Below, piece by piece: positions 18,905-55,215 of a stretch of DNA of 64,000 nucleotides. Origin of the DNA: Mesobacillus subterraneus (GTDB taxonomy: Bacteria > Bacillota > Bacilli > Bacillales > Cytobacillaceae); NCBI RefSeq assembly GCF_020524355.2, contig NZ_CP129019.1, positions 682,001 through 746,000 of the forward strand. The letters are read 5' to 3'. The translations under genes and the position numbers were made by a program. Under the pieces are notes generated by a model. It saw only the letters and a list, made by a program, of their open reading frames with translations. It was not told the DNA's origin and did no database searches. Numbering within the stretch: position 1 is the first letter of the stretch; every line of letters starts with the position of its first letter.

Positions 18905-20150
18905 AGAGGAAATCGTAATTCTGTCCGAACCTGGTGTCACTTTAGACAAAATCAGGAGGGGAACTGGTAATATTGTCTGAACCTGGTATCACTTCAGGCA
19001 AAATCAGGAGGGAAACTCGTAATATTGTCTGAACCTGGTGTCACTTCAGACAAAATCAGGAGGGAAACTCGTAATATTGTCTGAACCTGGTGTCACTTCA
19101 GACAAAATCAGGAGATGAAGCCGCAACTATGTCCGAACGTGGTGTCACTTCAGACAAAATCAGGAGATGAAGCCGTAATATTGTCCGAACCTGGTGTCAC
19201 TTCAGACAAAATTAGGAGATGAAGCCGCAACTATGTCCGAACGTGGTGTCACTTTAGACAAAATAGAGAGGGGAAGCCGCAACTATGTCCGAACCTGGTA
19301 TCACTTCAGACAAAATAAAGTGGGGAAGCCGCAACTTTGTCTGTACCTGGTGTCACTTCAGACAAAATCAGGAGGGAAACTCGTAATATTGTCTGAACCT
19401 GGTGTTACTTCAGACAAAATTAGGAGATGAAGCCGTAACTATGTCCGAACCTGGTGCCACTTCAGACAAAATCAGGAGATGAAGCCGTAACTATGTCCGA
19501 ACCTGGTGCCACTTCAGACAAAATCAGGAGATGAAGCCGCAACTATGTCCGAACGTGGTGTCACTTCAGACAAGATCAGGAGATGAAGCCGTAATATTGT
19601 CCGAACCTGGTGTCACTTCAGACAAAATTAGGAGATGAAGCCGCAACTATGTCCGAACGTGGTGTCACTTTAGACAAAATAGAGAGGGGAAGCCGCAACT
19701 ATGTCCGAACCTGGTATCACTTCAGACAAAATAAAGTGGGGAAGCCGCAACTTTGTCTGAACCTGGTGTCACTTCAGACAAAATCAGGAGGGAAACTCGT
19801 AATATTGTCTGAACCTGGTGTTACTTCAGACAAAATTAGGAGATGAAGCCGTAACTATGTCCGAACCTGGTGCCACTTCAGACAAAATCAGGAGATGAAG
19901 CCGCAACATTGTCTGAACCTGGTGTCACTTCAGACAAAATCAGGAGATGAAGCCGCAACTTTGTCTGAACCTGGTGTCACTTCAGACAAAATCAGGAGAT
20001 GAAGCCGCAACTTTGTCTGAACCTGGTGTCACTTCAGACAAAATTAGGAGATGAAGCCGCAACTATGTCCGAACGTGGTGTCACTTTAGACAAAATAGAG
20101 AGGGGAAGCCGCAACTATGTCCGAACCTGGTGTCACTTCAGCGGATACCC
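18905..20150. repeat. Locus A: 24-unit tandem array, 52-bp period, GACA-N25-TGTC palindromes
   Basis: Twenty-four units lie in exact 52-bp register: the CTGGT marker falls at 18931, 18983, 19035 and so on to 20127 (23 intervals of 52 = 1196). Each unit holds GACA, 25 bases, TGTC, then a 19-base linker. The arms extend to TTCAGACA / TGTCTGAA. Units differ by point changes. An eight-unit block is duplicated (offset 416 bp, for example 19194-19430 against 19610-19846). It fills the 1.4-kb gap between convergent ccpA and acuC. No gene is present; 78-codon frames inside it are repeat translations. Confidence 0.95.
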
Positions 20151-20200
20151 AGTTAGTGCCTGAACCTTGTACTACTTTATTGACCTTTTAATGAAACACA

Positions 20201-20229
20201 CAAAAAACCGGGTGAAATGCTCCCGGTTT
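20201..20229 (-). terminator. Terminator after acuC
   Basis: AAACCGGG / CCCGGTTT stem followed on the minus strand by a T-run. Confidence 0.85.
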
Positions 20230-20233
20230 CAAT

Positions 20234-21406
20234 TTACACAGTTTCAGACTTTTTATTTGAGCGGATTGGGTACAAGGCTTTCTCCACTGTCTGGGCATTC
20301 TTTTCTGTGATTTCAGGTTTGCGCGGGATAGGAGGATATAAATCTTCAGGATCATCCCACTGCTGTGGCAATTCTACAGGTGCTTGCTCCTTCCATTCAT
20401 CTATCCACTCCTGAGGCAAGCTGCCATAACAGTTTGAGTTTTCAATCATCTCAAGCCAGATCAATGACCAGGCTCTAGGTACAACGCGCCAAATATCGTA
20501 GCCTCCACCGCCAACAGCAATCCATTTGCCGCCGCAATATTTATGGGCAACTTCATGTGCCAGCTTTGGGATCTCACGATATATTTTCATTGTAGAAGAT
20601 AAATGCGTCAATGGGTCAAGATAATGAGCATCTGCTCCATTTTGCGTAAGAATCACGTCTGGTTTAAAGAACTCGGCAACTTCCATCAGGGAACTCCTAT
20701 AGGCGTCGAGCCATGATTCATCCTCTGTAAAAGCATCAACAGGGATATTGAAAGAATATCCATAGCCCTTGCCCTGACCGCGCTCATTCACATTTCCAGT
20801 ACCCGGGAAGAGATAACGTCCTGTTTCATGGATTGAGAGAGTACATACATCAGGATCGTCGTAAAATGACCATTGTACCCCATCTCCGTGGTGGGCATCA
20901 GTATCGACATATAGTACGCGGGCATTGTATTTTTTCTGCAGGTATTTGATCGCTACAGAACTATCATTATAAATGCAGAAGCCCGACGCTTTTCCCCTGA
21001 AGCCATGATGCAGACCGCCACCGAGATTCAGTGCGTGGCTGGCCTTACCGTTCATGACATAATCCACTGCTGTCAGGGTGCCCCCGACAAGCAAAGCACT
21101 CGCTTCATGCATATTAGCAAAAATCGGTGTATCTTCCGTTCCCAATCCATATCCTTCTGCAGGTTCACTCTTAAGCTTTCCCTGGCCAGCAAGCTTAACA
21201 GCGTTTACAAAATTGGGGTCATGAACGAGGTGAAGTTCCTCGTCCGTTGCCATCCGAGGAGCAACAATATCTTCCTCATCAATTGCACCAATTTTACGCA
21301 GTAAATCCAGCGTGAGTTTCAACCTCATCTGGTTGAAAGGATGATGGCTGCTGAAACGGTAATTCAGCAGCTCTTCGGAAAAAACGAATACAGAGCGATC
21401 GCTCAT
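20234..21406 (-). CDS. acuC: AcuC, class I histone-deacetylase-type protein deacetylase
   Basis: A 390-residue zinc-dependent deacetylase of the arginase/HDAC fold. In B. subtilis AcuC removes the acetyl group that AcuA places on acetyl-CoA synthetase. Active-site signatures are NLGGGLHHGFRGKASGFCIYND, the metal ligands in YVDTDAHHGDGVQ, LSIHETGRYLFPGTG, and DVILTQNGADAHYLDPLTHL; the C-terminal part carries VGGGGYD. Its ATGA overlaps the end of acuB, so the two are translationally coupled. It is the last gene of acuABC and ends at a terminator facing the array. Confidence 0.95.
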   Translation of the reverse strand: MSDRSVFVFSEELLNYRFSSHHPFNQMRLKLTLDLLRKIGAIDEEDIVAPRMATDEELHLVHDPNFVNAVKLAGQGKLKSEPAEGYGLGTEDTPIFANMHEASALLVGGTLTAVDYVMNGKASHALNLGGGLHHGFRGKASGFCIYNDSSVAIKYLQKKYNARVLYVDTDAHHGDGVQWSFYDDPDVCTLSIHETGRYLFPGTGNVNERGQGKGYGYSFNIPVDAFTEDESWLDAYRSSLMEVAEFFKPDVILTQNGADAHYLDPLTHLSSTMKIYREIPKLAHEVAHKYCGGKWIAVGGGGYDIWRVVPRAWSLIWLEMIENSNCYGSLPQEWIDEWKEQAPVELPQQWDDPEDLYPPIPRKPEITEKNAQTVEKALYPIRSNKKSETV

Positions 21407-22050
21407 GATGAAACTCCCGGAAGGTTCGGCCAGAGTACATGATGTCCGGCCTTTTTCAAGTCCTCGATCACAGCGATCGGATTCATCGTCTGGATTCTTA
21501 CGACGAGGATTTTATAACGTTCATCCTTTTGGTCAGGGTATATAAGTACGCTCTGGATATTGGCTTTCCTCATACTGATAACAGATGCAACTTCACAAAG
21601 CATTCCAGCCTTATTTGGCACCTTAACTTCGATTTGTGAGCCTGGCTGATGTGCGCCAGTAAGCTCAACCAGTGTATGCAGAAGATCTGTCTCAGTGACG
21701 ATACCTACCAGCTTTTTATCCTTGGTGATTGGCAGGCAGCTAATATTATGTTCATAAAAAATGGCCGAAATTTCCTCGACAAAATCTAGGGGATGCCCAG
21801 TGATCACATTAGTCGTCATAATCGATTTGACTGGATTCTCGAGTTCACCCTTATGCTCATCCCAATGGAACACAGAAGGGGCTGCATCCTTGATGTCCCT
21901 GTCGGATACCAGTCCGATCACACTATTGTCCTTATTTACTATTGGGATGTGGCGAATCTTCTTATCCGCCATTAGCTTGATTGCATCCGCAATTGTATTT
22001 TCAGGAAAAAGGGTCGTTACATCCTTTTTCATAATTTCCTCGACGATCAT
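21403..22050 (-). CDS. acuB: AcuB, tandem CBS and ACT domain protein
   Basis: A 215-residue cytosolic protein with two CBS motifs (about residues 4-60, EIMKKDVTTLFPENTIADAI; and 75-130, IMTTNVITGHPLDFVEEISAI) and a C-terminal ACT-like part (VKVPNKAGMLCEVASVISMRKANIQSV). CBS pairs bind adenine nucleotides, so AcuB probably senses energy or CoA-type ligands for the AcuA/AcuC acetylation switch. It overlaps acuC by four bases. The ATG follows GGAGGAAGG. Confidence 0.94.
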   Translation of the reverse strand: MIVEEIMKKDVTTLFPENTIADAIKLMADKKIRHIPIVNKDNSVIGLVSDRDIKDAAPSVFHWDEHKGELENPVKSIMTTNVITGHPLDFVEEISAIFYEHNISCLPITKDKKLVGIVTETDLLHTLVELTGAHQPGSQIEVKVPNKAGMLCEVASVISMRKANIQSVLIYPDQKDERYKILVVRIQTMNPIAVIEDLKKAGHHVLWPNLPGVSS

Positions 22051-22090
22051 GGTTCCTTCCTCCTTGAATGATGAGGCATCTAAAAATTCA

Positions 22091-22724
22091 TCAATACATA
22101 AAACGGTTCATAAACCGCAGCTGGTCAAACTGCTGGATTGATTCAGGCTCAATTCTCTTGCCAATTCGCGCCATCAGGCAGTTTGCTGGATGGGAGCTGA
22201 TTTCAGGGTCATCTGTTGCGTACCAGGTTAGACCGCCAGCATTCATCATTTTTTCCATGACTTTGCGGTATTCCCAAACATTCAAGCCGGTTCCTTTTAA
22301 GTCCCAATGCCAGTAGTATTCAGTCGTGATAATGATATAATCTTCCATCGCGTCATCCATCATGGATACCATCAGCAAATTCTTGCCGACTCGGCTGCCA
22401 CGGAATTCAGGAATGACCTCAATTGCACCCAGCTCTATTAAATCTTCCATTTTTCCTTCTGACCATCTTTCAAGCGGGTCTGGATAAAGGTAAGTAACAT
22501 AACCGACAATCATATGGCCTGAGCGCGCTACGATGATGCGTCCCTCCGGCAGACCGGCAATCTCGACGAGTGCCTTGTGCTGCTGGGCAGGGGGACGGAA
22601 CGCCACTAAATCTTCATGGAATTCATAGCTTGCAAGTTTTTCAGGAGAAATTGGGGCCTTCAATGATTAAACGGCCATGAGGAGTCTTTAATTCTTTTGC
22701 GTTATAAGTCTTTTTATGTTCCAT
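22091..22724 (-). pseudogene. acuA: AcuA, GNAT acetyltransferase of acetyl-CoA synthetase, one frameshift
   Basis: AcuA acetylates and inactivates AcsA. The main frame shows AFRPPAQQHKALVEIAGLPEGRI (quoted in part), LYPDPLERWSEG, the acetyl-CoA site VIPEFRGSRVGKNLL, and MMNAGGLTWYATDDPEISSHPANCL near the end. Its N-terminus is in another frame: an ATG at 22724 gives MEHKKTYNAKELKTPHGR and then hits a stop. Removing one base from the C4 run (22653-22656, GGGG on the plus strand) joins IIEG to PISPEKLASYEFH, as in B. subtilis AcuA. The shift is probably an artefact. It is divergent from acsA, with a cre site in the shared promoter. Confidence 0.88.
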
Positions 22725-22783
22725 TCAGTCACCACCCGTCAACAATTCAAACGATAATTCTATTATACATAAAATCTAACAGA

Positions 22784-22797
22784 TAAAAGCGCTTTCA
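22784..22797. promoter_or_regulatory. cre-like CcpA site between acuA and acsA
   Basis: On the minus strand the sequence is TGAAAGCGCTTTTA, one base off the consensus TGWAANCGNTNWCA. It lies upstream of a TATAAT-like acuA box (22761-22767, minus strand) and about 140 bases before the acsA promoter. Repression of acuABC and acsA by CcpA is established in B. subtilis. Confidence 0.75.
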
Positions 22798-22935
22798 CAA
22801 AATTTTCTGTATATAAATATGAAATTTTTAAAGGAAACTTCTACATATAAACGGTATGCTTCAGTGGATTTGCAATACTTACTGATCCAAAGTGATTTTC
22901 CAATCACAATATATATTCTACTAATATTTTAAAAA

Positions 22936-22964
22936 TTGAGAAAATCGAATTTTTATACTATAAT
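22936..22964 (+). promoter_or_regulatory. Sigma-A promoter of acsA
   Basis: TTGAGA (22936-22941), a 17-base spacer, and TATAAT (22959-22964); the acsA ribosome site starts about 20 bases further on. Confidence 0.8.
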
Positions 22965-22998
22965 GGATGTTAAATATAAAGCCAAGGGGGATGGATAC

Positions 22999-24718
22999 AT
23001 GAAAGTGGAAGCGCTACCAGTTACACAGGGGGATCACAACTTAAAAAAATTATCAACAGCTTCAAGGCCAATTTGATTGGAACGAAGCGGAGAAAGAGTT
23101 TTCCTGGTCTGAAACAGGCAGGGTCAATATGGCATATGAAGCAATTGATCGCCATGCAAAAGGATTCAGGAAAAATAAAATTGCGCTATATTATCAGGAT
23201 GGAGTGCGCAAGGAGAAATATACTTTTAAAGAAATGAAGGAGCTTTCAAATAAAGCTGGTAATGTTTTTAAAACTTATGCTGATGTGGAAAAAGGGGACC
23301 GCGTGTTTATTTTCATGCCTCGTTCTCCAGAACTGTACTTTGCTGTTCTCGGGGCGGTCAAGCTAGGCGCGATTGTAGTCCCATTATTTGAAGCATTCAT
23401 GGAAGGTGCTGTCCGTGACAGATTGGAGGACAGTGGGGCAAAGGTATTAGTTACGACCCCTGAGCTTCTTGAGCGTGTTCCTGTTGATGAGCTTCCTGAC
23501 TTGAAGCATATTCTTCTCGTAGGCGACAATATTGAGGAAAACGACAAGTATGTTGATTTCAAGCAAAAGCTAGCTGTAGCTAGCAAGAAGCTTGATATAG
23601 AATGGGTAGACCGTACGGATGGTCTGATCTTACATTATACTTCTGGTTCAACTGGAAAACCGAAAGGCGTTCTCCACGTTCATAATGCGATGATTCAGCA
23701 TTATCAGACTGCCAAATGGGTGCTTGATCTTAAAGAAGAAGATGTGTACTGGTGCACAGCGGATCCAGGCTGGGTAACAGGAACTTCTTACGGAATTTTC
23801 GGTCCATGGCTTGCAGGAACGTCTAATGTCATCATTGGCGGGCGCTTCAATCCAGAAACATGGTATAAGATGATTGAAGAATACGGAGTGACTGTCTGGT
23901 ACAGTGCCCCTACAGCTTTCAGGATGCTGATGGGCGCGGGAGATGAAGTAGTGAAGAGGTTTGATCTTAGCTGTCTTCGTCATATCCTGAGTGTCGGTGA
24001 GCCGCTGAACCCGGAGGTAGTCAGATGGGGAATGAAGGTGTTCAACCTGCGCATCCATGATACCTGGTGGATGACTGAGACAGGAGCACAATTGATCTGT
24101 AACTATCCAAGCATGGAAATCAAGCCTGGATCAATGGGTAAACCAATCCCAGGTGTGAAGGCTGCGATTGTTGATGACCAGGGCAACGAATTGCCGCCAT
24201 ACAGAATGGGCAATTTAGCTATCCAAAAGGGCTGGCCATCTATGATGCATACAATCTGGAACAACCCTCAGAAGTATGATTCTTACTTCATGCCAGGTGA
24301 CTGGTACGTTTCCGGTGACTCAGCGTATATGGATGAAGATGGCTACTTCTGGTTCCAGGGACGGATTGATGATGTCATCATGACTTCAGGTGAGCGTGTC
24401 GGACCATTTGAAGTCGAAAGCAAGCTTGTTGAACACCCTGCAGTTGCTGAAGCTGGTGTCATTGGCAAGCCAGACCCTGTCCGCGGTGAAATCATCAAGG
24501 CGTTCATTGCATTGCGTGACGGTTATGAACAGTCGGACGAACTAATCGAAGAAATTCGCCAATTCGTTAAAAGAGGACTTGCTGCACATGCTGCTCCTCG
24601 TGAAATCGAATTCCGCGATAAGCTGCCGAAAACACGAAGCGGCAAGATTATGCGTCGTGTATTGAAGGCCTGGGAACTGGACCTCCCAACTGGCGACCTT
24701 TCTACAATGGAAGATTAA
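22999..24718 (+). pseudogene. acsA: Acetyl-CoA synthetase AcsA, one frameshift near the N-terminus
   Basis: AcsA converts acetate, ATP and CoA to acetyl-CoA and allows growth on acetate. From the ATG at 22999 (behind AAGGGGGA) the frame reads MKVEALPVTQGDHNLKK and then stops. Removing one A from the A7 run at 23043-23049 restores NLKNYQQLQGQFDWNEAEKE and continues to MAYEAIDRH. The remaining 529 residues are complete: LHYTSGSTGKPKGV, WWMTETGAQLICNYP, YVSGDSAYMDEDG, and the C-terminal LPKTRSGKIMRR whose Lys is the AcuA target. It is probably a functional gene with a sequence error. It is divergent from acuABC. Confidence 0.9.
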
Positions 24719-24728
24719 TAGCATACAT

Positions 24729-24763
24729 AAAAAGAGCGTGAAACCGGGTTTCACGCTCTTTTT
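24729..24763. terminator. Bidirectional terminator between acsA and the PBP gene
   Basis: Near-perfect 17-base stem, AAAAAGAGCGTGAAACC paired with its complement, with A and T runs at the two ends. Confidence 0.92.
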
Positions 24764-24775
24764 GCGAATAAAATA

Positions 24776-24810
24776 AACACCGCTCCAATGTGGATGCGGT
24801 GTTCATTTTT
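24776..24810 (-). terminator. Terminator of the PBP gene
   Basis: AACACCGC / GCGGTGTT stem, followed on the minus strand by a TTTATTTTATT stretch. Confidence 0.75.
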
Positions 24811-24819
24811 ACTTAAATG

Positions 24820-27748
24820 CTAATTTCCATTGCCTTCGCCAGTTCCATTACCTTCACCCTCGCCGTCTCCATCACCATCTCCAGGAGGAGGTGGTGGCGG
24901 TGGCTTAGGAGGATCCTTCGGTTTAGGATTAGTTGGAGGCGGATCCTTCGGTTTAGGATCAGTAGGTTTGTCATCCTTTGGCGGATCCTTAGGCTCTGGC
25001 TTTTTGCCAATTTCAATGATATTGGATGGCGCTGATTCTTTTCCAGCTATATCGACTGCTGTAACATAGAATGAGCCGTCTCCGGCATTGAAGCTCAGGG
25101 CTTCTCCTGCTTTGATGCTGCCGACTTTTTTCTTGTTGTTATAGATTCGATAGCCAACAATATCATTTTCAGGATGTTTGCCCCATGTTATGGTCTTGCC
25201 TGAAAGTTTGATTCCCAGCGCTGCAGGCGTCTTGCCATTTTCGCTCAGCTTATCGTCCGCAACGAGGATCTTGTTCCATGCATCCTTTTTAGGGATTAAC
25301 TGCTGTGGATCCCTGATTTTATGGCTGATGATGCTTTCCATATACTCTGGATTCAGTATTACCCCGGTGTCGGTGAATTCAGAAGGAGTAGAATCAAGCG
25401 CTATATAACGCTTATCTCCAACGGTAACAAATTTATTTTCGACGAGACTGTCATCAACTTTAGTTGGTGCATATTTCGCTATGAAGTAATCTGATTCAAC
25501 AAGCCCTGCTTTAGAGCAAGCACTTGAAGGCAGCAAACCAGATACTGCACAATATGAACGCTTTACGATTCCGCCAGGCATTTTGAATCGTTCTTCAGGA
25601 TCCACTAGCTTAGGAGCGACCTCATAGGCGTCGTTCATTAGGTCTGCCCAGATGTATTGGGTCCGGACTCCATAAGAAAGATTTTTATAGCTTCTTTCAA
25701 GGGCTTTTGGCGTATCGTATCCAAGCCATACACCGAAAGAGACATTTGGATTGGTTGCCACAAACCACGAATCAATATATTCATGCCCTGTTCCTGTTTT
25801 ACCAGCCCAGTCAGATCCAAATTTCAATCTCCCTTTAACAGCTGTAGCAGTACCGCGGTTAATAACATCACGCATCATATCAATTGTTAAGTAAGAAGTC
25901 TGTGGACTGAAAACATCTACTGGTTCAGATTTATGTTGGAATACGACTTCGCCATTTTTGTCGACAATCTTCTCGATCATATAAGCATCGATGAACTTAC
26001 CGCCATTTGCGAATGTGCCAAATGCGTTGGTGTTTTCTTCAACAGTGACACCGCCGCGTAATGAACCGATAGCGGTTGATTTGTTGGTATAGTCATCTGG
26101 TTTTAAATTCGAAAAGCCCATTTTATCAAGGAAGTTCGCCGGGCGCTGGTTTAGTATGTTTTTATAAGCTAGAACAGCCGGAACGTTGTAAGACTTCGTC
26201 AATGCATGTCTTGCAGTGGTTAAACCGCTGTATCTCATATCATAGTTGTTAGGCCAGGCTTTTCCAGCTCCGTTCAAAAACACTTGAACATCTGGCAGAA
26301 CGGAACCAGGATGCAATTTTCCGAGCTCCATTGCTGGTGCATAAACCAAAAGCGGCTTCATCGTCGATCCGTTCTGTCGCGGAGCCCTGGTGGCGTGGTT
26401 AGTCTGTTCACGCTTAAAGTTGCGGCCGCCGACAAAACTGATGATTTTACCAGTTTTGTTTTCTATGAGAGTTGCACCGATTTCAACAGGCTCCTGGACT
26501 ACTGTCATTTTGTTAGGGTCATCCGGGTCAGGAACTTCCTGAGGTTTATCTCTGCCATAGTAAGGGTAATTCTTTGCTGTTTCCTGCATCTTTACATAAA
26601 TATCTTTATTGATAGTTGTATAAATCTTATAGCCATTCTGGCGAAGGTCACGGTCAGCAAGTGCATGATATTCTGCCAGTAATTTCTCGTCTTTTTTCAA
26701 ATCTTCAAGTTCATATCCATCTCGCTCGGCCAGTATATTAGCCAGGATTTCTACTGAACGGGCCTCGATTTCAAACGTCAGGAAAGGATATTCCTCAACC
26801 GTGTTATCACTAGGAACTTCTTTTACAAAATCCTTGGTTATATCGTAGTTGATCGCATCCTTGAACTCATCATCGGTAATGAAACCAGCTCCATGCATCC
26901 TGGTAACGACTGTCTTGTATCTGGGACAGGCCTGGCTCAAGCCCTGCTGGATCCTTGAGCTTCCCATGGTCACTGCTGAAAGGTGTATAGCCGAATGGAC
27001 TCTGTGGAAGACCTGCGATAAAAGCGGCCTGAGGTAAAGTCAGGTCTTTCGCTTCTTTTCCGAAGATTCCCTTCGCTGCGGCCTGGACACCGGCAATGTT
27101 GCTGCCATTCGCATTCCGGCCAAACGTGGCGACATTCAAGTAAGCTTCAAGAATTTCCTTTTTATCAAAGAATTTTTCGAGACGAAGGGCGAGCAGGATT
27201 TCTTTCGCTTTACGCTCGAAGGAAATTTCATTAGTCAAAATCTGGTTTTTGATGAGCTGTTGTGTAAGTGTACTTCCTCCGGAGGATGTCGCTGAGTTTG
27301 TGACTTCCTGGAATAGTGCGCGCATGATCGCTTTTGGAACAACGCCATCATGCTCGTAAAAGTACTCATCTTCTGTTGCGACCACTGCATTTACCAAATG
27401 CTTCGACATATCGTCAAGCTTGACTTCCTCACGGTAAAGGTCCGTTCGAAGCTTGCCAAGATAAACATCATTATCAAAATATAAATCCGAGGTTTCTTCA
27501 TAGTTGTATATATCTTTCCTCATGTTTTCATAAGGTCGGATTTGTTCATCTTTGACAAGGGATGCGAAGTAGCCTGCACCTGCACCTGCGGCGAAACCGC
27601 CGCCGAGAACCAATACAATGATCAATAACAACAGCATGTTCCAGACAACCGAATAAGTAATCCTGGCTCCTTTTACGGTCTTTTTATTCGTAAAAAAAGC
27701 ACCAAAGGATTTAAGCTTCTCTTTCCAAGCCTGTTTTCCTTCATGCAT
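24820..27748 (-). pseudogene. Class A penicillin-binding protein with C-terminal Fn3 domain, one frameshift
   Basis: A bifunctional peptidoglycan glycosyltransferase/transpeptidase of about 970 residues. Order: cytosolic N-terminus, one membrane segment (about 33-65), GT51 domain (ATEDEYFYEHDGV; GGSTLTQQLIKNQ; RKAKEILLALRLEKFF), transpeptidase with STMK, SYN and KTGTG boxes, then a fibronectin-III-like domain (DIVGYRIYNNKK, GSFYVTAVDIAGKES). A Pro/Lys/Asp tail ends in Gly/Glu/Asn repeats. The frame breaks at about 26921-26930; removing one C from CCC (GGG at 26923-26925) joins LEPGLSRYKTVVTRM. No active-site box is lost. It resembles PBP1A/PBP2d types. Its place between acsA and tyrS differs from B. 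subtilis. Confidence 0.88.
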
Positions 27749-27841
27749 TCATATCATTCCCCCTAAAATCACATACATTATAGCATAAACAGGCTGTCGA
27801 ATAGCTGTTAATGTGCATTTTTCTGAAAATTTATGTCGAAT

Positions 27842-29448
<1,607 letters not shown>

Positions 29449-29601
29449 AATGGACTGAAGATAGATCTACACTAGGGATGACAGACAATTATCGCTGGTG
29501 GAACGGAAAAACTGTCCGTCATCATGGGTAAGACGGACAAAAATCGCTGGTGGAACGAGATTACTGTCCGTCATCAGGCATACCACCGATATAAGATTAA
29601 G
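29449..29601. repeat. Locus C: two GACA-N25-TGTC units, 52-bp period
   Basis: Two units lie in the tyrS-rpsD gap, with GACA at 29484 and 29536 (52 apart), each followed by exactly 25 bases and TGTC. Arms extend to GACGGACA / TGTCCGTC in unit 2 and to eleven bases with one mismatch in unit 1. The loops share ATCGCTGGTGGAACG. The sequence differs from loci A, B and D, but the skeleton is the same. Confidence 0.9.
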
Positions 29602-43529: not shown

Positions 43530-43885
43530 CAAGAAAAAAGAAATTCCTCTCCACCGAGCTTATAGAGGCACAAAAAGGCGCAGGATCAGAAGAAAGCGCC
43601 ATCCATCGCGCTTATGGAGACGCAAAAAGGAGCAGGACCAGAAGAAAGTGCCATCCATCGGGCTTATGGAGGCACAAAAAAGAGCAGGATTAGAAGGAAG
43701 CGTAATCCATCGGGTTTATGGAGACACAAAAAGGCGCATGAACAGATGAAGCGCCATCCACCGGGCTTATGGGGACACAAAATGGTGCAGGACCAGAAGA
43801 AAGCGTAAATCCATCGTACTTATGGAGACACAAAAAGCAGCAGGATCAGAAGGAATCGTCATCCACCATCGCTTTGGTGGTAAGA
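43530..43885. repeat. Locus E: seven tandem units, about 52-bp period, TCCAT/ATGGA hairpins
   Basis: The CTTAT marker occurs at 43559, 43611, 43663, 43715 (TTTAT), 43766 and 43819, with a last degenerate copy near 43872; spacings are 52, 52, 52, 51, 53, 53. Each unit can form a hairpin around CGGGCTT with arms TCCAT / ATGGA. Arms covary: CCTCT / AGAGG in the first copy and CCACCA / TGGTGG in the last. The core GACA-N25-TGTC is not present here. Rest of the 540-base gap: rarD promoter sequence only. Lysine/arginine-rich frames within it are repeat translations. Confidence 0.88.
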
Positions 43886-44943: not shown

Positions 44944-44962
44944 GGGCTGCAACAAAGATCCC

Positions 44963-44999: not shown

Positions 45000-45032
45000 A
45001 AGAAGTTAGTAAGTATAAATTCTACTTCGAGA

Positions 45033-45434
45033 ATTGTCCAGCTCCAGCGCCTAGCCCCTCGATTCGCTTGTCTAGCTGCGGCTCCTAACTCCTCGAGACG
45101 TTTGTCTAGCTGCGGCTCCTAACTCCTCGAGACGTTTCGGTCCTGCCAATGAAGTCAAAGAGCGACTTCACTGTCAGGCCCTCCAACGCTTGTCGGAGTT
45201 GAGCAGTCGCCTCCGCTTTTCGAATTGTCTAGTGTCGCCTCCTAGAAACGCAGTAACTTCAACTCCGCCGGCAGAAGCAAAAAGCGCTTCTTTGTCGGAG
45301 TCTCCAGTTTCTGCGTTTCTGGACAGTCGGCTACACTTTTCGGTTTCAGTTCGCTCAGGTGAAGTCAAAGATCGACTTCACCGGTCGGCCATCCAGCGCT
45401 TGTCGGGGCTGACCCAGGCGCTTGCGCTTTTCTT
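45033..45434. repeat. Compound block of dispersed GC-rich repeats
   Basis: A 400-base mosaic. It starts as a long-form copy (CCAGCTCCAGCGCCTAGCCC) with the TCTAGCTGCGGCTCCTAACT segment repeated three times, then the TGAAGTC / GACTTCA hairpin. Next comes a variant unit (about 45226-45345) with AGAAACGCAG / CTGCGTTTCT arms and an AGAAGC / GCTTCT inner hairpin. A final partial standard unit reaches the last codon of nadK2. Nothing else is in this gap. Confidence 0.85.
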
Positions 45435-46233: not shown

Positions 46234-46376
46234 AAAAATTCCTCCAAACATTTCGTATTTCTTCCATAATTTTACCCACTTTTGAAATCTTTTGCTAAAA
46301 TAAATGTTATTGACATTAGTTTATCATTTTTTCATAAGATTTTGAAAGTACGAGAAACTTACAAGGGGGCTTCAAG

Positions 46377-47387: not shown

Positions 47388-47400
47388 GGAGGGATAAAAT

Positions 47401-48036: not shown

Positions 48037-48040
48037 AATG

Positions 48041-48067
48041 AACCTGCTGCGGCAGGTTTATTTTTTT
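48041..48067 (+). terminator. Terminator after yteJ
   Basis: Perfect AACCTGC / GCAGGTT stem with T-run. Confidence 0.88.
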
Positions 48068-48110
48068 GCCTTTTTGTTGATAATAATAAGCTGAAAGGTT
48101 GTGGAGGACG

Positions 48111-48806
48111 ATGAAATGGGTGCTGCTCGCCATACTGATTCTCACGGTGCTTGTACTAATAATCTTTTTTACAAAAGTTAAGATTTTTTTAGATTATTTC
48201 CACGGCAATGATAATGATTATTTTAAGGTAACGATTAAAGCTTGGGGTGGTTTGCTCAAGTTTACGATAGAAGTTCCTGTAGTAAAAATTGATGATAATT
48301 CTCCAACAATCATCGCAGAGCAAAAAGTTAAAACAGGTCCCGATGAAAATATGAAACAACAAAAAACAACGCAAGTGGATAAAAATGATTTACTTAGCAG
48401 CCTTCATGATTTCAAGCAGCTGATCACCCACATCACCGGTCTCCATAAAATCGTCCGGGATTTTTTAAAAAAGGTTACAATACGGAATATCGAATGGCAC
48501 ACCATGGTTGGCGTTTCAGATGCAGCGGCCACAGGCGTGATAACCGGGGCTTTTTGGGCAGTCAAAGGCGGAGTGATCGGTCTCCTGAGCTACTATATGA
48601 AAATGAAAGAAATGCCTGTCATGACGATTTCACCAAGCTTCCAGCAAACTGTTTCAATTACTAGTTTTAAATGTATGATTCAAGTAAGAGTCGGGCATGC
48701 TATTTTAGCAGGAATAAAGCTGGTTAAATATTGGAAAGGCGGCTGGCCAGAATTTAAATCAAAGCCATTATCCGCTCTTTCTGGTGATAATACTAATTCT
48801 GTCTAA
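48111..48806 (+). CDS. ytfI: YtfI, DUF2953 protein
   Basis: A 231-residue protein with an N-terminal membrane segment (VLLAILILTVLVLIIFFTKV) and a DUF2953 domain. Recognisable parts include IKAWGGLLKFTIEVPVV, the C-terminal half NIEWHTMVGVSDAAATGVITG (in part) and SPSFQQTVSITSFKCMIQVR. It directly precedes the sporulation gene ytfJ with 19 bases between them, so a shared transcript and a sporulation role are likely. GTGGAGG precedes the ATG at 48111. No biochemical function is known. Confidence 0.9.
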   Translation: MKWVLLAILILTVLVLIIFFTKVKIFLDYFHGNDNDYFKVTIKAWGGLLKFTIEVPVVKIDDNSPTIIAEQKVKTGPDENMKQQKTTQVDKNDLLSSLHDFKQLITHITGLHKIVRDFLKKVTIRNIEWHTMVGVSDAAATGVITGAFWAVKGGVIGLLSYYMKMKEMPVMTISPSFQQTVSITSFKCMIQVRVGHAILAGIKLVKYWKGGWPEFKSKPLSALSGDNTNSV

Positions 48807-48825
48807 AATTAAGGAGGAAACAGGA

Positions 48826-49338
48826 ATGTCCGACCATCCAATTCAAGGATTAATGACAACTGCCATGGAAAGCTTGAAAGAAATGATTGATGTTAACACA
48901 ATCATTGGAGACCCCGTAGAAACTCCGGATGGAAGTGTAATCCTGACAGTTTCAAAGGTAGGTTTCGGTTTTGCAGCTGGTGGAAGTGAATTTGTTTTGG
49001 AAAGCTCTAAAGGAGGATCCGGTGGCTCAGGCGGTTCTGGTGGCTCAGGAGGACAGTCTGGAGGTTCCCAGCACCCTTTTGGAGGAGGTAGCGGTGGCGG
49101 TGTGTCAATCACACCAATTGCTTTCCTGATCGTCAACTCTAAGGGTGTAAAAATGCTCCATCTTGATGAAAGTACACATTTGTACGAGAAGATACTTGAT
49201 CTGGCTCCACAGGCCGTTGAAAAAATTCAGCAAATGATGTCAAAGAAAGACCAGAACAGCCAGGATGGCAGCCAGAACAAGAACCAAGGCCATTCTCAGT
49301 CTGATTACAACGGTCCGAAAACAGACCTGGATCTCTAA
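48826..49338 (+). CDS. ytfJ: Sporulation protein YtfJ (GerW family)
   Basis: A 170-residue GerW-family protein made in the forespore in Bacillus. The core shows HPIQGLMTTAMESLKEMIDVNTIIGDP (in part), GSVILTVSKVGFGFAAGGSEF and, after the linker, PIAFLIVNSKGVKMLHLDES. A Gly/Ser-rich flexible stretch (about residues 65-90) breaks the domain, and the tail is Gln/Asn-rich. The ATG at 48826 follows AAGGAGG. Function in germination or spore properties is known only genetically. Confidence 0.92.
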   Translation: MSDHPIQGLMTTAMESLKEMIDVNTIIGDPVETPDGSVILTVSKVGFGFAAGGSEFVLESSKGGSGGSGGSGGSGGQSGGSQHPFGGGSGGGVSITPIAFLIVNSKGVKMLHLDESTHLYEKILDLAPQAVEKIQQMMSKKDQNSQDGSQNKNQGHSQSDYNGPKTDLDL

Positions 49339-49521
49339 GCAGTTGAATTTACACAGTAACGGGAAAACCAACAATTTAACAGGGAGCTGCCTTTTCCAGC
49401 GGAAAGGCGGCTTAGCTATGTATGTTGGGTCTTGGTCTCCGTTTAGTAAAATAATTGCAAAAAAATTTTTAAAAAGATATATTAACACTGTACATATAAT
49501 GGACAAGGAGGATGAGCAGGT

Positions 49522-50022
49522 ATGGCATCTGTTACATTTAAGGGGAACCCAGTTACATTATTAGGAAATGAAGTGAAGGTTGGAGACCAGGCACCAGATT
49601 TTAAAGTGCTTGCAAACGATCTTTCTGAAGTGACACTTCAAGATTCAAAAGGACAAGTACGTTTGATCAGCGTTGTTCCTTCACTTGATACAGGAGTTTG
49701 TGATGCGCAGACTCGCCGTTTCAATGAAGAAACTGCAAACGTTGATAACGTTAAGATTTTGACAGTCAGCGTGGACCTTCCTTTCGCACAAAAGCGCTGG
49801 TGCGGAGCGGCTGGAATCGATAAAGTCCAGACACTATCTGATCACCGCGAGCTTTCATTCGGTGAAGCTTACGGAGTAGGAATCAAGGAACTTCGCCTAC
49901 TAGCACGCGCAGTATTTGTTGTGGATTCAAACGACAAAGTAACATACGTTGAGTATGTAAGCGAAGCAACAGACCACCCTAACTACGAAGCAGCAATCGA
50001 AGCTGCAAAACAAGCGAACTAA
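49522..50022 (+). CDS. tpx: Thiol peroxidase Tpx
   Basis: A 166-residue atypical two-cysteine peroxiredoxin that reduces peroxides with thioredoxin. The peroxidatic Cys is in [14 protein letters not shown] (near residue 60) and the resolving Cys in KRWCGAAG (near 94). Family landmarks [20 protein letters not shown] and [12 protein letters not shown] are present. AAGGAGGA lies before the ATG. It is monocistronic with a terminator. Confidence 0.96.
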
Positions 50023-50036
50023 ACACAACTTTGGAA

Positions 50037-50068
50037 ACAAGCCGCAGAAAAAAACTGCGGCTTGTTTT
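50037..50068 (+). terminator. Terminator after tpx
   Basis: ACAAGCCGCAG / CTGCGGCTTGT stem, seven A in the loop, T-rich end. Confidence 0.9.
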
Positions 50069-50109
50069 GCTTTGAGTGTGAGAATGTATAAATTCCAACG
50101 ATTCAAGGC

Positions 50110-50218
50110 TTCCTATCGGACAAACGGAAGGCGTAAACCGAGAAAAGTGTTCGTTAGTAAGGCTCTAAATCGGACAAATGGAAGGTGTAAACCGAGAAAA
50201 GTGTCCGATAGAATATCT
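50110..50218. repeat. Locus D: two GACA-N25-TGTC units, 54-bp period
   Basis: GACA at 50119 and 50173 (54 apart), each followed by exactly 25 bases and TGTT (unit 1) or TGTC (unit 2). Arms in unit 2 extend to ATCGGACA / TGTCCGAT; unit 1 has one mismatch. Loops share GGAAGG and GTAAACCGAGAAAAG. It sits between tpx and ytxK. A long frame from 50178 into ytxK only reads through the repeat. Confidence 0.88.
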
Positions 50219-50312
50219 GATACAGCAAAACCTGCTCCAGCCATATGCCTTGTACGTAAGGCGAAACACAGCTAAAATAGATAAATATCTATTCAAATCA
50301 GGAGGAAATAAA

Positions 50313-51314
50313 GTGAGTGTGACTCCGGTCGAACAATTATTTACTGCGTTCAATACAAGTGCAGATATTTTAAAAGATGAGTTATCATGTACATATTTAG
50401 AGGCGCTGGCTGAAACCGGTGAAAACATGTTTCAGGGCACAGTGCTTCAAGACGAACTAAATGAAGTGACACAGAAAAGGCTTGAAAAAGTATACAAGGA
50501 GATCAACCTTGATTCTTTTAGCAAGGAAGAAATCCGCAAAGGCTTCCAGCTTGCGATTTTGAAGGGCATGAAGGAACATGTGCAGCCGAACCATCAAATG
50601 ACACCTGATTCTGTCGGCATGTTCATCGGCTACCTGGTCAATAAGTTTGTCGCCGAGAAGTCATTCAGGCTGCTTGATCCAGCAGTGGGAACAGGGAACT
50701 TGCTGGCTACGGTTTTGAACCAGCAGACAGACAAGGAAATCGATTCTGTTGGTGTTGAAATTGATGACTTGCTGATCCGTCTGGCTTTCGTGAATGCCAA
50801 TCTTCAAAAGCATCCTGTCGAGTTTTTCAATCAGGACAGTCTTGAACCGTTGTTTGTCGATCCAGCAGATGTGGCCATTTGTGACCTTCCAGTAGGCTAC
50901 TATCCAAATGACCTTCGAGCGGAACAATATGAAGTAAAAGCAAAAGCAAAAGAAGGCTATACGTACTCTCATCACATGTTTATCGAGCAAAGTACTAAGC
51001 ATGTAAAAGAAGGCGGGTATTTGTTCTTCATGATTCCTAATGGTCTTTTTGAAAGTGAACAAGCTCCTATGCTTCATGAATTCATTAAAAACCATTTGAT
51101 TGTCCAGGGTATTTTACAGCTTCCTGCTTCATTGTTTAAAAACAAACAGGCAGCTAAAAGTATCTTAATCCTGCAGAAACACGGTGAAGAAGTGAAAGCA
51201 CCAAAGCAGGCACTTCTGGCCGAGCTTCCAAAACTATCGGACGGCTCCGCTGTAAACAGGATGCTGAATAAAATCGATCAATGGTTCAGCGAAAATAAAG
51301 CTGTAAAGCAATAG
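50313..51314 (+). CDS. ytxK: YtxK, class I methyltransferase related to adenine-specific DNA methylases
   Basis: A 333-residue SAM-dependent methyltransferase-fold protein. Motif I is LLDPAVGTGNLLATVL (near residue 120). The position of the catalytic motif carries ICDLPVGYYPND, not the usual NPPY of N6-adenine methylases, so DNA methylation activity is doubtful. The C-terminal part (FFMIPNGLFES, LPASLFKNKQAAKSILIL) resembles type I restriction M subunits. The start is the GTG at 50313, behind GGAGGAAA. No restriction gene is near. B. subtilis has the same order (tpx, ytxK, ackA). Confidence 0.9.
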   Translation: MSVTPVEQLFTAFNTSADILKDELSCTYLEALAETGENMFQGTVLQDELNEVTQKRLEKVYKEINLDSFSKEEIRKGFQLAILKGMKEHVQPNHQMTPDSVGMFIGYLVNKFVAEKSFRLLDPAVGTGNLLATVLNQQTDKEIDSVGVEIDDLLIRLAFVNANLQKHPVEFFNQDSLEPLFVDPADVAICDLPVGYYPNDLRAEQYEVKAKAKEGYTYSHHMFIEQSTKHVKEGGYLFFMIPNGLFESEQAPMLHEFIKNHLIVQGILQLPASLFKNKQAAKSILILQKHGEEVKAPKQALLAELPKLSDGSAVNRMLNKIDQWFSENKAVKQ

Positions 51315-51340
51315 AACCGGCTAATTAACCGGTTCTTTTT
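51314..51340 (+). terminator. Terminator after ytxK
   Basis: GAACCGG / CCGGTTC stem, eight-base loop, T-run. Confidence 0.88.
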
Positions 51341-51455
51341 CCGTTTGTTTATGGTATAAAAAACTTGGCAGTGTTTTTTTCAAATCATTAGAAGTATCTG
51401 AATAAAAACTCATTTCCCGTTTGGTAAAACTTTGCTTGAAATGTGAAAAAGACAG

Positions 51456-51484
51456 TGTTTAAATGGGGAAATGAGAGATATAAT
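51456..51484 (+). promoter_or_regulatory. Putative ackA promoter
   Basis: TGTTTA at 51456-51461 and TATAAT at 51479-51484, spaced 17. The -10 is good and the -35 weak, which fits a gene that needs activation; I found no clear cre site upstream. Confidence 0.45.
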
Positions 51485-51562
51485 TTCGGCCTGTAGCACA
51501 CAATAATGGTGTACTATTTAACTGTATTTTAATCAGGTTGTTATATAAAAGGAGCGGTACAA

Positions 51563-52750
51563 ATGTCTAAAATAATTGCAATTAATGCGGGCAGTTCGTC
51601 ACTAAAGTTCCAACTGTTCGAAATGCCAAGCGAAGAAGTTATCACTAAAGGTATTGTAGAAAGAATCGGACTTAAGGATTCGATCTTCACTATTTCAGTG
51701 AATGGAGAAAAAAATAAGGAAGTTACTGATATCCCTGATCATGCGGTTGCGGTAAAAATCCTTCTTGATAAATTGACGTCATTGGGAATTATCCAATCAC
51801 TTGATGAAATCGAAGGAATCGACCACCGTGTCGTTCACGGCGGTGAAGAATTCAGCGATTCTATATTGATCACCGAAGAAGTTTTACAAAAAATCGAGGA
51901 GCTTTCAGAGCTTGCCCCGCTGCATAATCCAGCTAACTTGACTGGAATCCGTGCATTCCAGCAGGTACTTCCGAATGTACCGGCAATTGCTGTGTTTGAT
52001 ACAGCTTTCCACCAGACAATGCCTGAGAACTCTTTCCTTTACAGTCTTCCTTACGATTATTATAAAAAGTACGGTATCCGTAAATATGGTTTCCATGGCA
52101 CATCACACAAGTATGTTTCCCAGCGTGCAGCAGAAATGCTTGGCCGTCCAGTCGAGCACTTGCGCCTGATTTCCTGCCACCTTGGAAATGGTGCAAGTAT
52201 CGCGGCGATCGAAGGCGGTAAATCTATTGATACATCAATGGGATTCACTCCGCTTGCAGGTGTGACAATGGGAACTCGTTCAGGTAACATTGACCCTGCT
52301 TTGATTCCATATATTATGGAAAAAACGGATAAGAATGCTGATGAAGTATTGGACGTCCTGAACAAGGAAAGCGGTATGCTAGGTGTATCGGGATTCTCAA
52401 GTGACCTTCGTGACATCGAAGACGAAGCAGAAAATGGAAATGAACGTGCTGAGCTTGCGCTAAAAGTTTTCGCGGACAGAATCCACAAGTACATCGGTTC
52501 ATATGCAGCCCGTATGTGCGGTGTTGACGCGATTATCTTTACTGCCGGCATTGGCGAAAATAGTTCGGCAATCCGTGCTCGTGTACTGCAGGGTCTTGAG
52601 TTCATGGGCATCTACTGGGACCCAGCTTTGAACAAGGTGCGCGGAGAAGAAGCTTTCATCAGCTACCCGCACTCTCCAGTAAAAGTAATGGTCATCCCGA
52701 CAGACGAGGAAGTCATGATTGCTCGTGATGTCGTACGTTTGGCAAAATAA
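51563..52750 (+). CDS. ackA: Acetate kinase AckA
   Basis: A 395-residue cytosolic enzyme that makes acetate and ATP from acetyl phosphate in overflow metabolism. Signatures: [16 protein letters not shown] at the start, [69 protein letters not shown] (in part), and [22 protein letters not shown] lies before the ATG. In B. subtilis it is activated by CcpA. It opposes acsA in the same window. Confidence 0.97.
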
Positions 52751-52762
52751 ATCACATCTCTC

Positions 52763-52793
52763 AGGCAGAAGCGCAGAAGCTTCTGCCTTTTTA
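52763..52793 (+). terminator. Terminator after ackA
   Basis: AGGCAGAAG / CTTCTGCCT stem with T-run. Confidence 0.88.
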
Positions 52794-52820
52794 TGTAGAA
52801 AGGAATTCGGATTGAATTCA

Positions 52821-52992
52821 GCTCCAGCTCCAGCGCTTGTCGGGGCTGACCAAGGCGCTTCCGCTTTTCTTTGTCCAGCTTCAGCGCCTAGCCCCTCGAG
52901 TCGTTTCGGTCCTGCCAATGAAGTCAAAGAACGACTTCACTGTCAGGCCCTCCAGCGCTTGTCGGGGCTGACCAAGGCGCTTCCGCTTTTCT
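52821..52992. repeat. Adjacent short and long forms of the dispersed GC-rich repeat
   Basis: A short form (52821-52870) is followed directly by a long form (52872-52992). Both end GGCGCTTCCGCTTTTCTT. The long form has two CTCCAGCGC-like boxes about 73 bases apart; the short form has one, with the flanks joined. This pair shows the relation between the two forms most clearly. Confidence 0.88.
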
Positions 52993-53036
52993 TGTGCTAT
53001 ACTGGAAGAAAATTCTGATTTGCTGGAGGTTTTTCA

Positions 53037-53873
53037 ATGCCTTTGACTCAACGGGAACAAAAGGTGCTGGATGAATTAAGTGTTTGGGAAAACAATCTCT
53101 ACGATTATGAACCGAATGATTTTGAATTAGCGTATGATCGATATCTTGAACGATCTTTTTCGCTTTTGCCAGATGAGGTGCAGGAACGCTTTTTCACCTT
53201 ATTCGACGGCTGGCTTTTCCATCTTCATTCCCTGATTCAGGGTTCACAGCTGCAGATGGATGCAAAGGAACGGATTCTTTCCGCGGGGCGGGTTTTCCAG
53301 CCTGACCTTGATACCATTCAGGATTTAAGGGAGCTGCCGATTGAACAGCTAGAGTTCATTGCCAAACAGCAAATTGCCCGACACAGACTCTATTCCTTCG
53401 TCCAGGGCGGTATGTCAGGGAGTGGTGGTAATCTTGTGCTAGGAGCAGATATGCCGTCGATGGCGGTCATTAATTTACGGATTGTTCAGCTGGTTGCGAT
53501 GACCTATGGTTTCGAAGTGAATACTCCATTTGAAATGATGATCGCTTTGAAAGTTTTTCATACTGCGACAATGCCTTCGAGGATGCAGAGCGCTGGCTGG
53601 GAAGAGTTGAAGAATGACCTCGAACAGGCAGAAGACTATTATTTCTATGAAGGCAATGATGATCTGACAGATGTGACATGGCTAGAGCAGCCAATTAAAC
53701 AGATTTTCAAGGGTATGGCAATCCTGATGTTCCGCAAAAAGCATGTCCAGGGCATGCCAGTGATCAGCATGGCGATCGGTGCTGGGGCAAACTATCAATT
53801 GACGAGAAGGGTGACTGACTTCGCGCATAAGTTTTACCAGATGAGATATTTCAAAGAAAAAGGAGCACTATAG
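53037..53873 (+). CDS. EcsC-family protein
   Basis: A 278-residue protein of the EcsC family, with no clear signal peptide but hydrophobic segments in the centre (MAVINLRIVQLVAMTYGFEV) and end (PVISMAIGAGANYQLTRRVTDFA). Typical EcsC features are the QGGMSGSGGNLVLGADMP loop and the terminal AHKFYQMRYFKEKGAL. The founding member is encoded with the EcsAB transporter, but here no transporter is adjacent. It is followed by moaB after four bases, so the two share a transcript. Molecular role unknown. Confidence 0.85.
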   Translation: MPLTQREQKVLDELSVWENNLYDYEPNDFELAYDRYLERSFSLLPDEVQERFFTLFDGWLFHLHSLIQGSQLQMDAKERILSAGRVFQPDLDTIQDLRELPIEQLEFIAKQQIARHRLYSFVQGGMSGSGGNLVLGADMPSMAVINLRIVQLVAMTYGFEVNTPFEMMIALKVFHTATMPSRMQSAGWEELKNDLEQAEDYYFYEGNDDLTDVTWLEQPIKQIFKGMAILMFRKKHVQGMPVISMAIGAGANYQLTRRVTDFAHKFYQMRYFKEKGAL

Positions 53874-53877
53874 AGTT

Positions 53878-54390
53878 ATGAGTACACAGGAACACAAACA
53901 AGCTGCACCAAGCCAGGTGCGCTGCAAAGTCATAACAATAAGCGATACAAGAACGCCTGATACAGACAAAAGCGGCAAGCTGATGATGGAAATGCTTGAG
54001 GCTGCGGGTCATAAGATTGTCGATTACGTGATTGTCAAAGATGAATCAGAACCGATTAAATCTGAAGTGTTGAAAGGATGCAGCAACTCCGAAGTTGATG
54101 TCGTGCTGACGAACGGTGGCACAGGGATTGCCAAGCGTGACGTCACAATCGAAACAGTCCAGAGCATATTTGAAAAAGAAATACCTGGATTCGGTGAAAT
54201 TTTCCGCATGCTAAGCTATACCGAGGATATCGGTTCGGCGGCGCTGCTATCACGTGCTGCAGCCGGAGTCGTCAATGACCGAGCTGTCTTCTCAACACCA
54301 GGATCAACGGGTGCAGTTCGCCTGGCAATGGAAAAGCTGATCATTCCTGAAATCGGACACGTTGTAAGAGAACTGACAAAAGATTTATAA
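53878..54390 (+). CDS. moaB: MoaB, molybdenum cofactor biosynthesis protein
   Basis: A 170-residue MogA/MoaB-fold protein, binding molybdopterin and possibly adenylating it. Signatures: VITISDTRTPDTDKSGKL, VDVVLTNGGTGIAKRDVTIE and the late FSTPGSTGAVRLAMEKLI. A short polar N-terminal extension precedes the domain, as in Bacillus MoaB. No other molybdopterin gene is present in the window. It is the second gene of an EcsC-moaB pair, ended by a hairpin. Confidence 0.93.
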   Translation: MSTQEHKQAAPSQVRCKVITISDTRTPDTDKSGKLMMEMLEAAGHKIVDYVIVKDESEPIKSEVLKGCSNSEVDVVLTNGGTGIAKRDVTIETVQSIFEKEIPGFGEIFRMLSYTEDIGSAALLSRAAAGVVNDRAVFSTPGSTGAVRLAMEKLIIPEIGHVVRELTKDL

Positions 54391-54400
54391 TTCATGACAG

Positions 54401-54432
54401 AGATGAAGCCTTATGGGTTTCATCTTTTTTTT
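54401..54432 (+). terminator. Terminator after moaB
   Basis: AGATGAAGCC / GGTTTCATCT-type stem with eight T. Confidence 0.85.
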
Positions 54433-54549
54433 GTGTATACAAAGGAATTTTGAAAACATGGTCGAATTACTGTATGGAGTTTCCAGATAAAAGGAAGGTG
54501 ACAGTGTTTGTTAAAGAACAATCTCGAACCGGTCAGAAGTAGGTTCAAG

Positions 54550-55215
54550 TTCAGATAGGTTTTGAGAGGGGTACGAGAAAGGGAGTCTGTAGGGAATTTT
54601 GGACAGGTTTCAGTTGAAGGAGCCCAAAGCTGTCAAGAAAAGACCATTATTGTGACAGGTTTCAGTTGAAGGAGCCTAAAGCTGTCAAGAAAAGACCGTT
54701 AATGTGACAGGTTTGAGGAGGAGGAGCCCAAAGCTGTCAAGAAAAGATCGTTATTGTGACAGGTTTGAGGAGGAGGAGTCCAAAGCTGTCAAGAAAAGAC
54801 GGTTATTGTGACAGGTTTCAGGTGGAAGAGGCCAAAGCTGTCAAGAAAAGATCGTTATTGTGACAGGTTTGAGGAGGAAGAGACCAAAGCTGTCAAGAAA
54901 AGACGGTTATTGTGACAGGTTTCAGGTGGAAGAGGCTAAAGCTGTCAAGAAAAGACGGTTATTGTGACAGGTTTCAGTTGAAAGAGGCTAAAGCTGTCAA
55001 GAAAAGGCGGTTATTGTGACAGGTTTCAGTTGAAGGAGCCCAAAGCTGTCAAGAAAAGATCGTTATTGTGACAGGTTTGAGGAGGAAGAGGCCAAAGCTG
55101 TCAAGAAAAGACCGTTATTGTGACAGGTTTGAGGAGGAAGAGGCCAAAGCTGTCAAAAAAACCTCGGAATCGTGACAGGTTTGAAGTGAACACAAGCAAA
55201 GCTGTCAAAATAACA
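54550..55215. repeat. Locus B: twelve tandem GACA-N25-TGTC units, 52-bp period
   Basis: GACAGG occurs at 54602, 54654, 54706 and every 52 bases to 55174 (12 exact steps). Each is followed by GACA-N25-TGTC with an added G-C pair inside (GACAG / CTGTC) and A-T outside (TGACA / TGTCA). Loops alternate between a few versions (GGTTTCAGTTGAAGGAG and GGTTTGAGGAGGA types). Linkers are AAGAAAAG-rich. A degenerate unit precedes at about 54554. It fills the moaB-GNAT gap; no ORF is present. Confidence 0.95.

Follow-up and report, generated by a model that had tools for sequence, protein, structure and literature searches.

Polar tandem arrays of a fixed-geometry inverted repeat in the intergenic DNA of Mesobacillus subterraneus and other Bacillaceae

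The chromosome of Mesobacillus subterraneus carries many tandem arrays of a short inverted repeat, which belong to a large and rapidly evolving class of tandem DNA elements found between genes in the Bacillaceae. Our starting point was a window of 64,000 nucleotides (nt) from this chromosome (NZ_CP129019.1, positions 682,001 to 746,000), which contains five such arrays, A to E, whose coordinates are given as window positions. A typical unit of 52-53 bp combines an inverted repeat with a spacer of some 25 nt. The inverted repeat frequently spans 27 bp, with arms of up to 10 bp, a 7-nt loop and TGTC/GACA as its foot, and the spacer is mostly rich in purines when read as the leading-strand sequence. 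The geometry of the arrays, the covariation of their arms, their conservation, their polarity and their gene context were read directly from the DNA. As to what they do, we tentatively favour the view that they form a polar inverted-repeat element that works at the level of DNA and is linked to replication or to the handling of the chromosome.

The initial annotation of the window had described four arrays, A to D, built on the skeleton GACA-N25-TGTC with a period of 52 bp (54 bp at D), and both statements were borne out. In the window the skeleton matched 39 times, where 0.70 matches were expected and the highest count in 100 shuffles was 5; the 39 were divided between A (22), B (12), C (two), D (one) and two stray single matches (11612 and 13045). 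Array A (18895..20141, + strand), as delimited by Tandem Repeats Finder, contains roughly 24 units, each 52 bp long, of the form TGTC[CT]GAA-N11-TTCAGACA plus a purine-rich 25-mer, and gave 22 exact skeleton matches. Array B (54602..55208, + strand), delimited in the same way, contains 11.7 units of 52 bp, each with TGACAGgTTT-N15-AAAgCTGTCA plus a 17-nt linker. Array C (29478..29575, + strand) has two units of GACGGACA-N25-TGTCCGTC, also with a 52-bp period, and array D (50112..50211, + strand) has two units of ATCGGACA-N25-TGTCCGAT with a GACA-to-GACA distance of 54 bp, one of the two ending in TGTT rather than TGTC. Array E (43550..43865, + strand), found with Tandem Repeats Finder, has six 52-bp units of GACA-N25-GCGC-N19-GACA with a TCCAT-N7-ATGGA hairpin. 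Its consensus keeps the geometry of A to D with one half of the core changed to GCGC, and its best stem was no better than those of shuffles (p = 0.4). Extended pairing of the arms lies inside the 33-mer in B (TGACAGgTTT/AAAgCTGTCA) and outside it in C (GACGGACA/TGTCCGTC). In array A the arms are imperfect, with both TGTCCGAA and TGTCTGAA present opposite TTCAGACA or TTTAGACA, and the base pair adjoining the core is often mismatched.

Outside the window, a two-unit form of the skeleton had 544 matches in the chromosome (4,786,507 bp in one contig) and none in a reversed control. In gap spectra from a 1.66-Mb sample, GACA-TGTC peaked at a spacing of 25 (247; median 21, next highest 41), TGTC-GACA at 19 (214; median 24, next highest 49) and GACA-GACA at 52 (216) and 104 (190). 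Among 299 genomes from the same order, 50 had the skeleton; they represent 24 of 116 genera and carry between 1 and 617 matches each. When genomes were sampled across the phylum, it was found in one of 299, the window's own, and the reversed control matched once (G478). A three-unit scan of named genomes gave at least 117 stretches, and the genera among the matches listed included Mesobacillus, Neobacillus, Cytobacillus, Litchfieldia, Robertmurraya, Evansella, Ureibacillus and Trichococcus. The last of these, which we take to lie outside the order of M. subterraneus, is represented by two records (L121 and L131) that hint at transfer or an older origin. Four array-carrying records (L048, L106, L127 and L128) are titled Chryseobacterium sp. 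ISL-80, a title that may be wrong. In the window, the chromosome and the same-order genomes alike, the skeleton thus stood far above shuffles and the reversed control, and the arrays first seen in the window are real and general.

We also ran Tandem Repeats Finder over 2.464 Mb of the chromosome with no pattern imposed. This gave 211 arrays, of which 54 had a period of 52, 10 a period of 53 and 44 a period of 20-21; part of the 52/53-bp arrays had cores other than GACA, array E being the one in the window. A palindromic stem matched by no more than one of 20 single-base shuffles per array was present in 49 of the 66 arrays with periods of 49-53, compared with 3 of 63 with periods of 18-24, 8 of 35 with periods of 32-45 and none of 10 with periods of 15-17. 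The families with other cores include GGTCACCAAT-N7-ATTGGTGACC (chromosome position 670,928) and GGGCACA...GTGACCG (e.g., 2,048,493), both of 52/53 bp, and the 53-bp family TACCCTTATG...CATAAGGGTA (e.g., 3,725,788). The 52/53-bp period and the inverted-repeat layout are thus not confined to arrays with the GACA core. Several of the arrays of period 20-21 (e.g., C1:491237, 3388857 and 4093281) have cores like TTATAGCGAAAA or TGGTCGAATTAAT.

The arrays are mostly oriented with replication, a feature that the initial annotation had overlooked, as it had array E and the other-core arrays. The origin was placed at dnaA (4,410,737-4,412,053) and the terminus at its antipode, near the switch in GC skew. 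Orientation could not be determined for 22 of the 66 arrays with periods of 49-53; among the other 44, 42 matched the direction of replication (p = 1e-10). The TGACAGGTTT family, which was oriented by sequence rather than composition, gave 12 of 12 with replication, one of these (4,394,044) on only three copies of the motif. The GGGCAC family gave 8 of 8, one array lying on the other chromosome arm; because the sign of this family was set by convention, only the mutual consistency of its eight arrays counts. Arrays oriented by purine content gave 22 of 24. A number of the orientations depend on purine fractions close to 0.5 (e.g., 0.52 at 1,991,173 and 0.48 at 2,426,079). We rejected the idea that general strand composition alone causes the polarity, since array-free intergenic DNA has no purine bias, its 25-mers having a mean purine fraction of 0.505 on the leading strand. 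All five orientable arrays situated between two lagging-strand open reading frames (ORFs) followed replication, and Pfam named at least one flank for each of them. Two are clear (368,984 and 3,329,404). The other three are weak: 2,957,439 has a purine fraction of 0.44, 2,048,493 takes its sign from convention and is 29 kb away from the presumed terminus, and 4,394,044 is 18 kb away from the origin. In a second, distant genome (G103), six of the seven arrays listed agreed with the antipode estimate, three pointing forward after the origin and three back on the other arm. Agreement was also seen for 10 of the 13 arrays listed in Neobacillus drentensis JC05 (G607, L067), all on one arm, with one neutral. 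Measured against local GC skew, a test in which gene strand is a confounder, 86 of 118 clusters in named contigs agreed, and at the strictest cut the ratio was 34 to 4.

Pairing of the arms was assessed by reducing 157 skeleton arrays to 119 with less than 72% identity, excluding any consensus containing N. The six pairs outside the core were Watson-Crick in 0.703 of cells, against a mean of 0.35 and a maximum of 0.398 in 1000 shuffles, and slid registers gave 0.15-0.32; all four pair types were seen at each of the six arm positions. A stricter non-redundant cut of 48 arrays gave 0.663. At arm positions 6-9, G-T (16 versus 48.5 expected) and A-C (11 versus 46.4 expected) were both depleted across arrays, which points to DNA. 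Both were somewhat high at the pair next to the core (G-T 24 versus 18.5 expected; A-C 11 versus 8.1), while at arm position 10 the values were 13 versus 11.3 for G-T and 8 versus 12.6 for A-C. The outer pairs inside the 25-mer showed a weaker excess (57 versus 35.5 and 45 versus 30.6). The arms described in the initial annotation as complementary outside the core do covary across arrays.

Within arrays, change rates were obtained for 38 arrays cut by period rather than by pattern, the other 28 of the 66 having too few units. In the GACA arrays, pooled change was 1.8% in the core, 4.3% in the stem, 12.0% in the loop, 11.0% in the spacer and 10.6% at unpaired arm positions; the corresponding values in the other-core arrays were 3.4% (stem), 7.1% (loop), 7.3% (spacer) and 5.0% (unpaired arm positions). 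Stem change was below spacer change in 32 of the 38 arrays. When two-unit pieces were folded as single-stranded DNA, on both strands and against shuffles, array B gave z values of -3.8 on the + strand, better than all 200 shuffles, and -1.2 on the - strand. Arrays C (-2.7 and -4.3) and D (-2.4 and -2.5) also folded better than the shuffle mean. Selection on structure, as proposed when the arrays were first noticed, is thus partly supported: stem and core change less than loop and spacer, but a stable hairpin is not found at every locus, array A being at shuffle level.

The arrays were also compared at their sites in seven relatives of the genus, taking for each array those in which both flanks were found. 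Array B was kept in 4 of 4 (G115, G243, G286 and G601), and the array D family was present in 4 of 5 (the same four genomes) and absent in G220. The array A family was at its site in 3 of 7 relatives, with 11 (G115), 15 (G243) and 13 (G597) units compared with 22 in M. subterraneus; a 21-bp repeat stood there instead in G286, G601 and G085, and neither repeat in G220. This replacement, TTCGACCA, is of the period 20-21 kind, and the ccpA and tyrS gaps of relatives carry such arrays. Array E was found in 2 of 6 relatives (G243 and G601) and was absent in G115, G085, G286 and G220.

Gene context, based on ORF heuristics, could be assigned to 59 of the 66 arrays, seven having none. These lay in 18 convergent, 36 tandem and 5 divergent gaps, compared with 159, 616 and 216, respectively, among 991 gaps of at least 150 bp (Fisher p = 0.0009 for convergent versus divergent). 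In the window, array A lies between ccpA (TIGR01481) and a convergent ORF (20234-21406, - strand), array C between tyrS and rpsD, array D downstream of tpx and array B between moaB and a GNAT-like gene. Array C precedes a terminator-like hairpin, and array B begins beyond the one that follows moaB (54399..54427, + strand; one found, where shuffles average 0.7). By eye, arrays A and D also lie beyond terminators, although the terminator scans list none at either.

These results suggest a role for the arrays at fork passage or in chromosome handling, because of their polarity. The arrays would act on DNA rather than RNA. Whether present on the lagging-strand template or extruded as cruciforms in vivo, their arms may either fold or serve as paired half-sites for a chromosomal protein. 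Such a protein would require the GACA feet at a fixed helical phase, which 52 bp, at about five helical turns, would provide. The task could be pausing, segregation or domain marking, with a presumed benefit to the cell. Placement would be preferential where genes converge, and slippage would change copy number and so homogenize each array.

Several observations weigh against this reading. The seventh array listed in G103 (at 2.336 Mb, some 125 kb away from the antipode), two of the 13 in N. drentensis and 32 of the 118 GC-skew clusters oppose the expected direction. Only 15 of the 48 strictly non-redundant arrays pair at five or six of the six arm positions, and no compensatory pair changes were found inside 50 arrays, where both double changes were non-pairing, in contrast to the pairing seen between arrays. 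In the same 50 arrays, stem changes on the purine strand comprised 46 G-T and 27 A-C, compared with 312 to 335 outside the stem (p = 0.013), and this modest lean fits RNA or single-strand folding of the purine strand. Stems changed more than spacers in 6 of the 38 arrays. Array A, the largest in the window, folded no better than shuffles on either strand (z = 0.23 and 0.05), so that hairpin strength is not universal even though the core spacing is common to A to D. Array C was at its site in none of the six relatives in which both flanks were found.

The main rival, and a close one, is that the arrays are passive minisatellites without function, expanding by slippage at hairpins and surviving mainly in one fork orientation, with template switching tidying the palindromes; we regard this as a serious possibility. 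Other hairpin repeats are known to differ in stability with their orientation. The varying copy number of array A, its replacement by another repeat in three relatives, the absence of array C, the presence of other short arrays (44 of period 20-21) in the same sample and the lack of compensatory changes within arrays are all consistent with it. Purely passive repeats would be expected to drift evenly, unless template switching corrects palindromes, whereas pooled change ranged from 1.8% in the core to 11.0% in the spacer. The period and the GACA/TGTC feet also recur across genera despite otherwise different sequence, the feet having been required by the pattern in the cross-genera searches and not in the period-based scan. 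In addition, arrays B and D hold their sites in four other species, and convergent gaps are preferred. The absence of array C in 6 of 6 relatives, together with the weakness of three of the five lagging-gene cases, moved our assessment slightly toward passive repeats and slightly away from the replication-linked element.

RNA hairpins that stabilize, process or terminate mRNA at transcript 3' ends are an unlikely explanation. They would account for the excess at gene ends in convergent gaps, for the position of array C between tyrS and a terminator-like hairpin and for the lean of stem changes toward G-T. Array B, however, lies beyond a terminator-like hairpin, as do A and D if judged by eye rather than by the scans; G-T and A-C are depleted alike at arm positions 6-9; the five arrays flanked by lagging-strand ORFs follow replication, two of them clearly; and array A has no Rfam match up to E 0.5.

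Gyrase-binding BIMEs are known from E. coli, and the arrays might by analogy be double-stranded binding sites for a nucleoid protein or topoisomerase at points of torsional stress, with the half-sites mattering and the hairpin incidental. This is equally improbable: GACA/TGTC are the least variable positions even where the arms mismatch (array A), the spacing is near five helical turns and convergent gaps are enriched, but the arms vary widely within one genome yet tend to be symmetrical, which one sequence-reading protein would not need, other-core arrays share the period, and such a role does not need polarity.

No named repeat family matched the arrays, as the initial annotation had supposed. 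In a literature search that did not extend to most subscription papers, no paper appeared from its title or abstract to describe this element. At its gathering threshold, the only one applied to C, D and E, Rfam gave a single match in the window, a T-box leader at 27891-28114, upstream of tyrS; array B had three sub-threshold matches of 20-21 bits, against cut-offs of 42-59. The polar chromosome motifs Chi and KOPS/SRS are purine-rich and oriented with the leading strand, and the arrays resemble them in both respects. However, the SRS consensus, GAGAAGGG, had no exact and seven one-mismatch occurrences in 119 spacers, compared with 0.19 and 4.37 in shuffles; it is not clearly enriched, and the SpoIIIE SRS motif was rejected. 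Regular alternation of a 27-bp palindromic repeat with a 25-bp spacer recalls CRISPR, but the spacers of the arrays are near-copies (about 11% change per site within GACA arrays) and the genome had no match to Cas1 (PF01867), the only cas gene searched for, which was positive in 9 of 14 genomes as a control; CRISPR identity was therefore rejected. An origin in phages or plasmids is unsupported, the three-unit skeleton occurring in one stretch of a viral contig collection and nothing similar to array A, the only array searched there, in a plasmid collection.

The bcr elements, which are mentioned in PMC3733652 and PMC4666352 or their references, resemble the arrays in being small repeats of a Bacillaceae group, the Bacillus cereus group. 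They are dispersed and are not known to have a 52-bp tandem period, and the arrays are set apart from them by description rather than by sequence. The closest known kind is the repetitive extragenic palindrome (REP), of which the arrays would be a new variant. Like REP/BIME and REPIN-RAYT elements, the arrays are short, multi-copy intergenic palindromes whose hairpin foot carries a conserved tetranucleotide, and some REPs are also reiterated in tandem (PMC3733652). Unlike REP/RAYT, the arrays repeat head to tail with a constant period of 52 bp, are conserved symmetrically at both feet and have an orientation that follows replication. The GTAG or CGTC end tag of REPs is replaced by TGTC/GACA on both sides, a partial resemblance given that CGTC is changed to TGTC in many repeats of the CGTC families (PMC3733652). 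Y1_Tnp (PF01797) had matches in 221 of 299 genomes but none in M. subterraneus or G085, each of which has more than 540 skeleton pairs; identity with REP/RAYT was rejected because the genome has no Y1_Tnp match.

Other repeats in the window include TTGTCTAGCTGCGGCTCCTAACTCCTCGAGACGT at 45034-45137, with a period of 34, which recurs in the genome (13 period-34 arrays in the 2.46-Mb sample, mostly TTGTCTAGCTGCGGCTCCTAACTCCTCGAGACGT-like), and a 123-bp duplication at 3018-3263 that by look is possibly related to it.

More than 500 adjoining unit pairs of this array class occur in several genomes of one genus. A class that keeps its geometry while its letters change, and whose arrays mostly point with the fork in a genome lacking any Y1_Tnp match, would offer a new way to study how chromosomes record the direction of replication. 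Tandem repeats that pipelines may flag as doubtful CRISPRs could be such arrays. A bolder and rather doubtful extension would be a sequence-free structural DNA code, in which polar inverted-repeat arrays with a constant layout mark the direction of replication at gene boundaries across the Bacillaceae, some factor reading them on the lagging-strand template.

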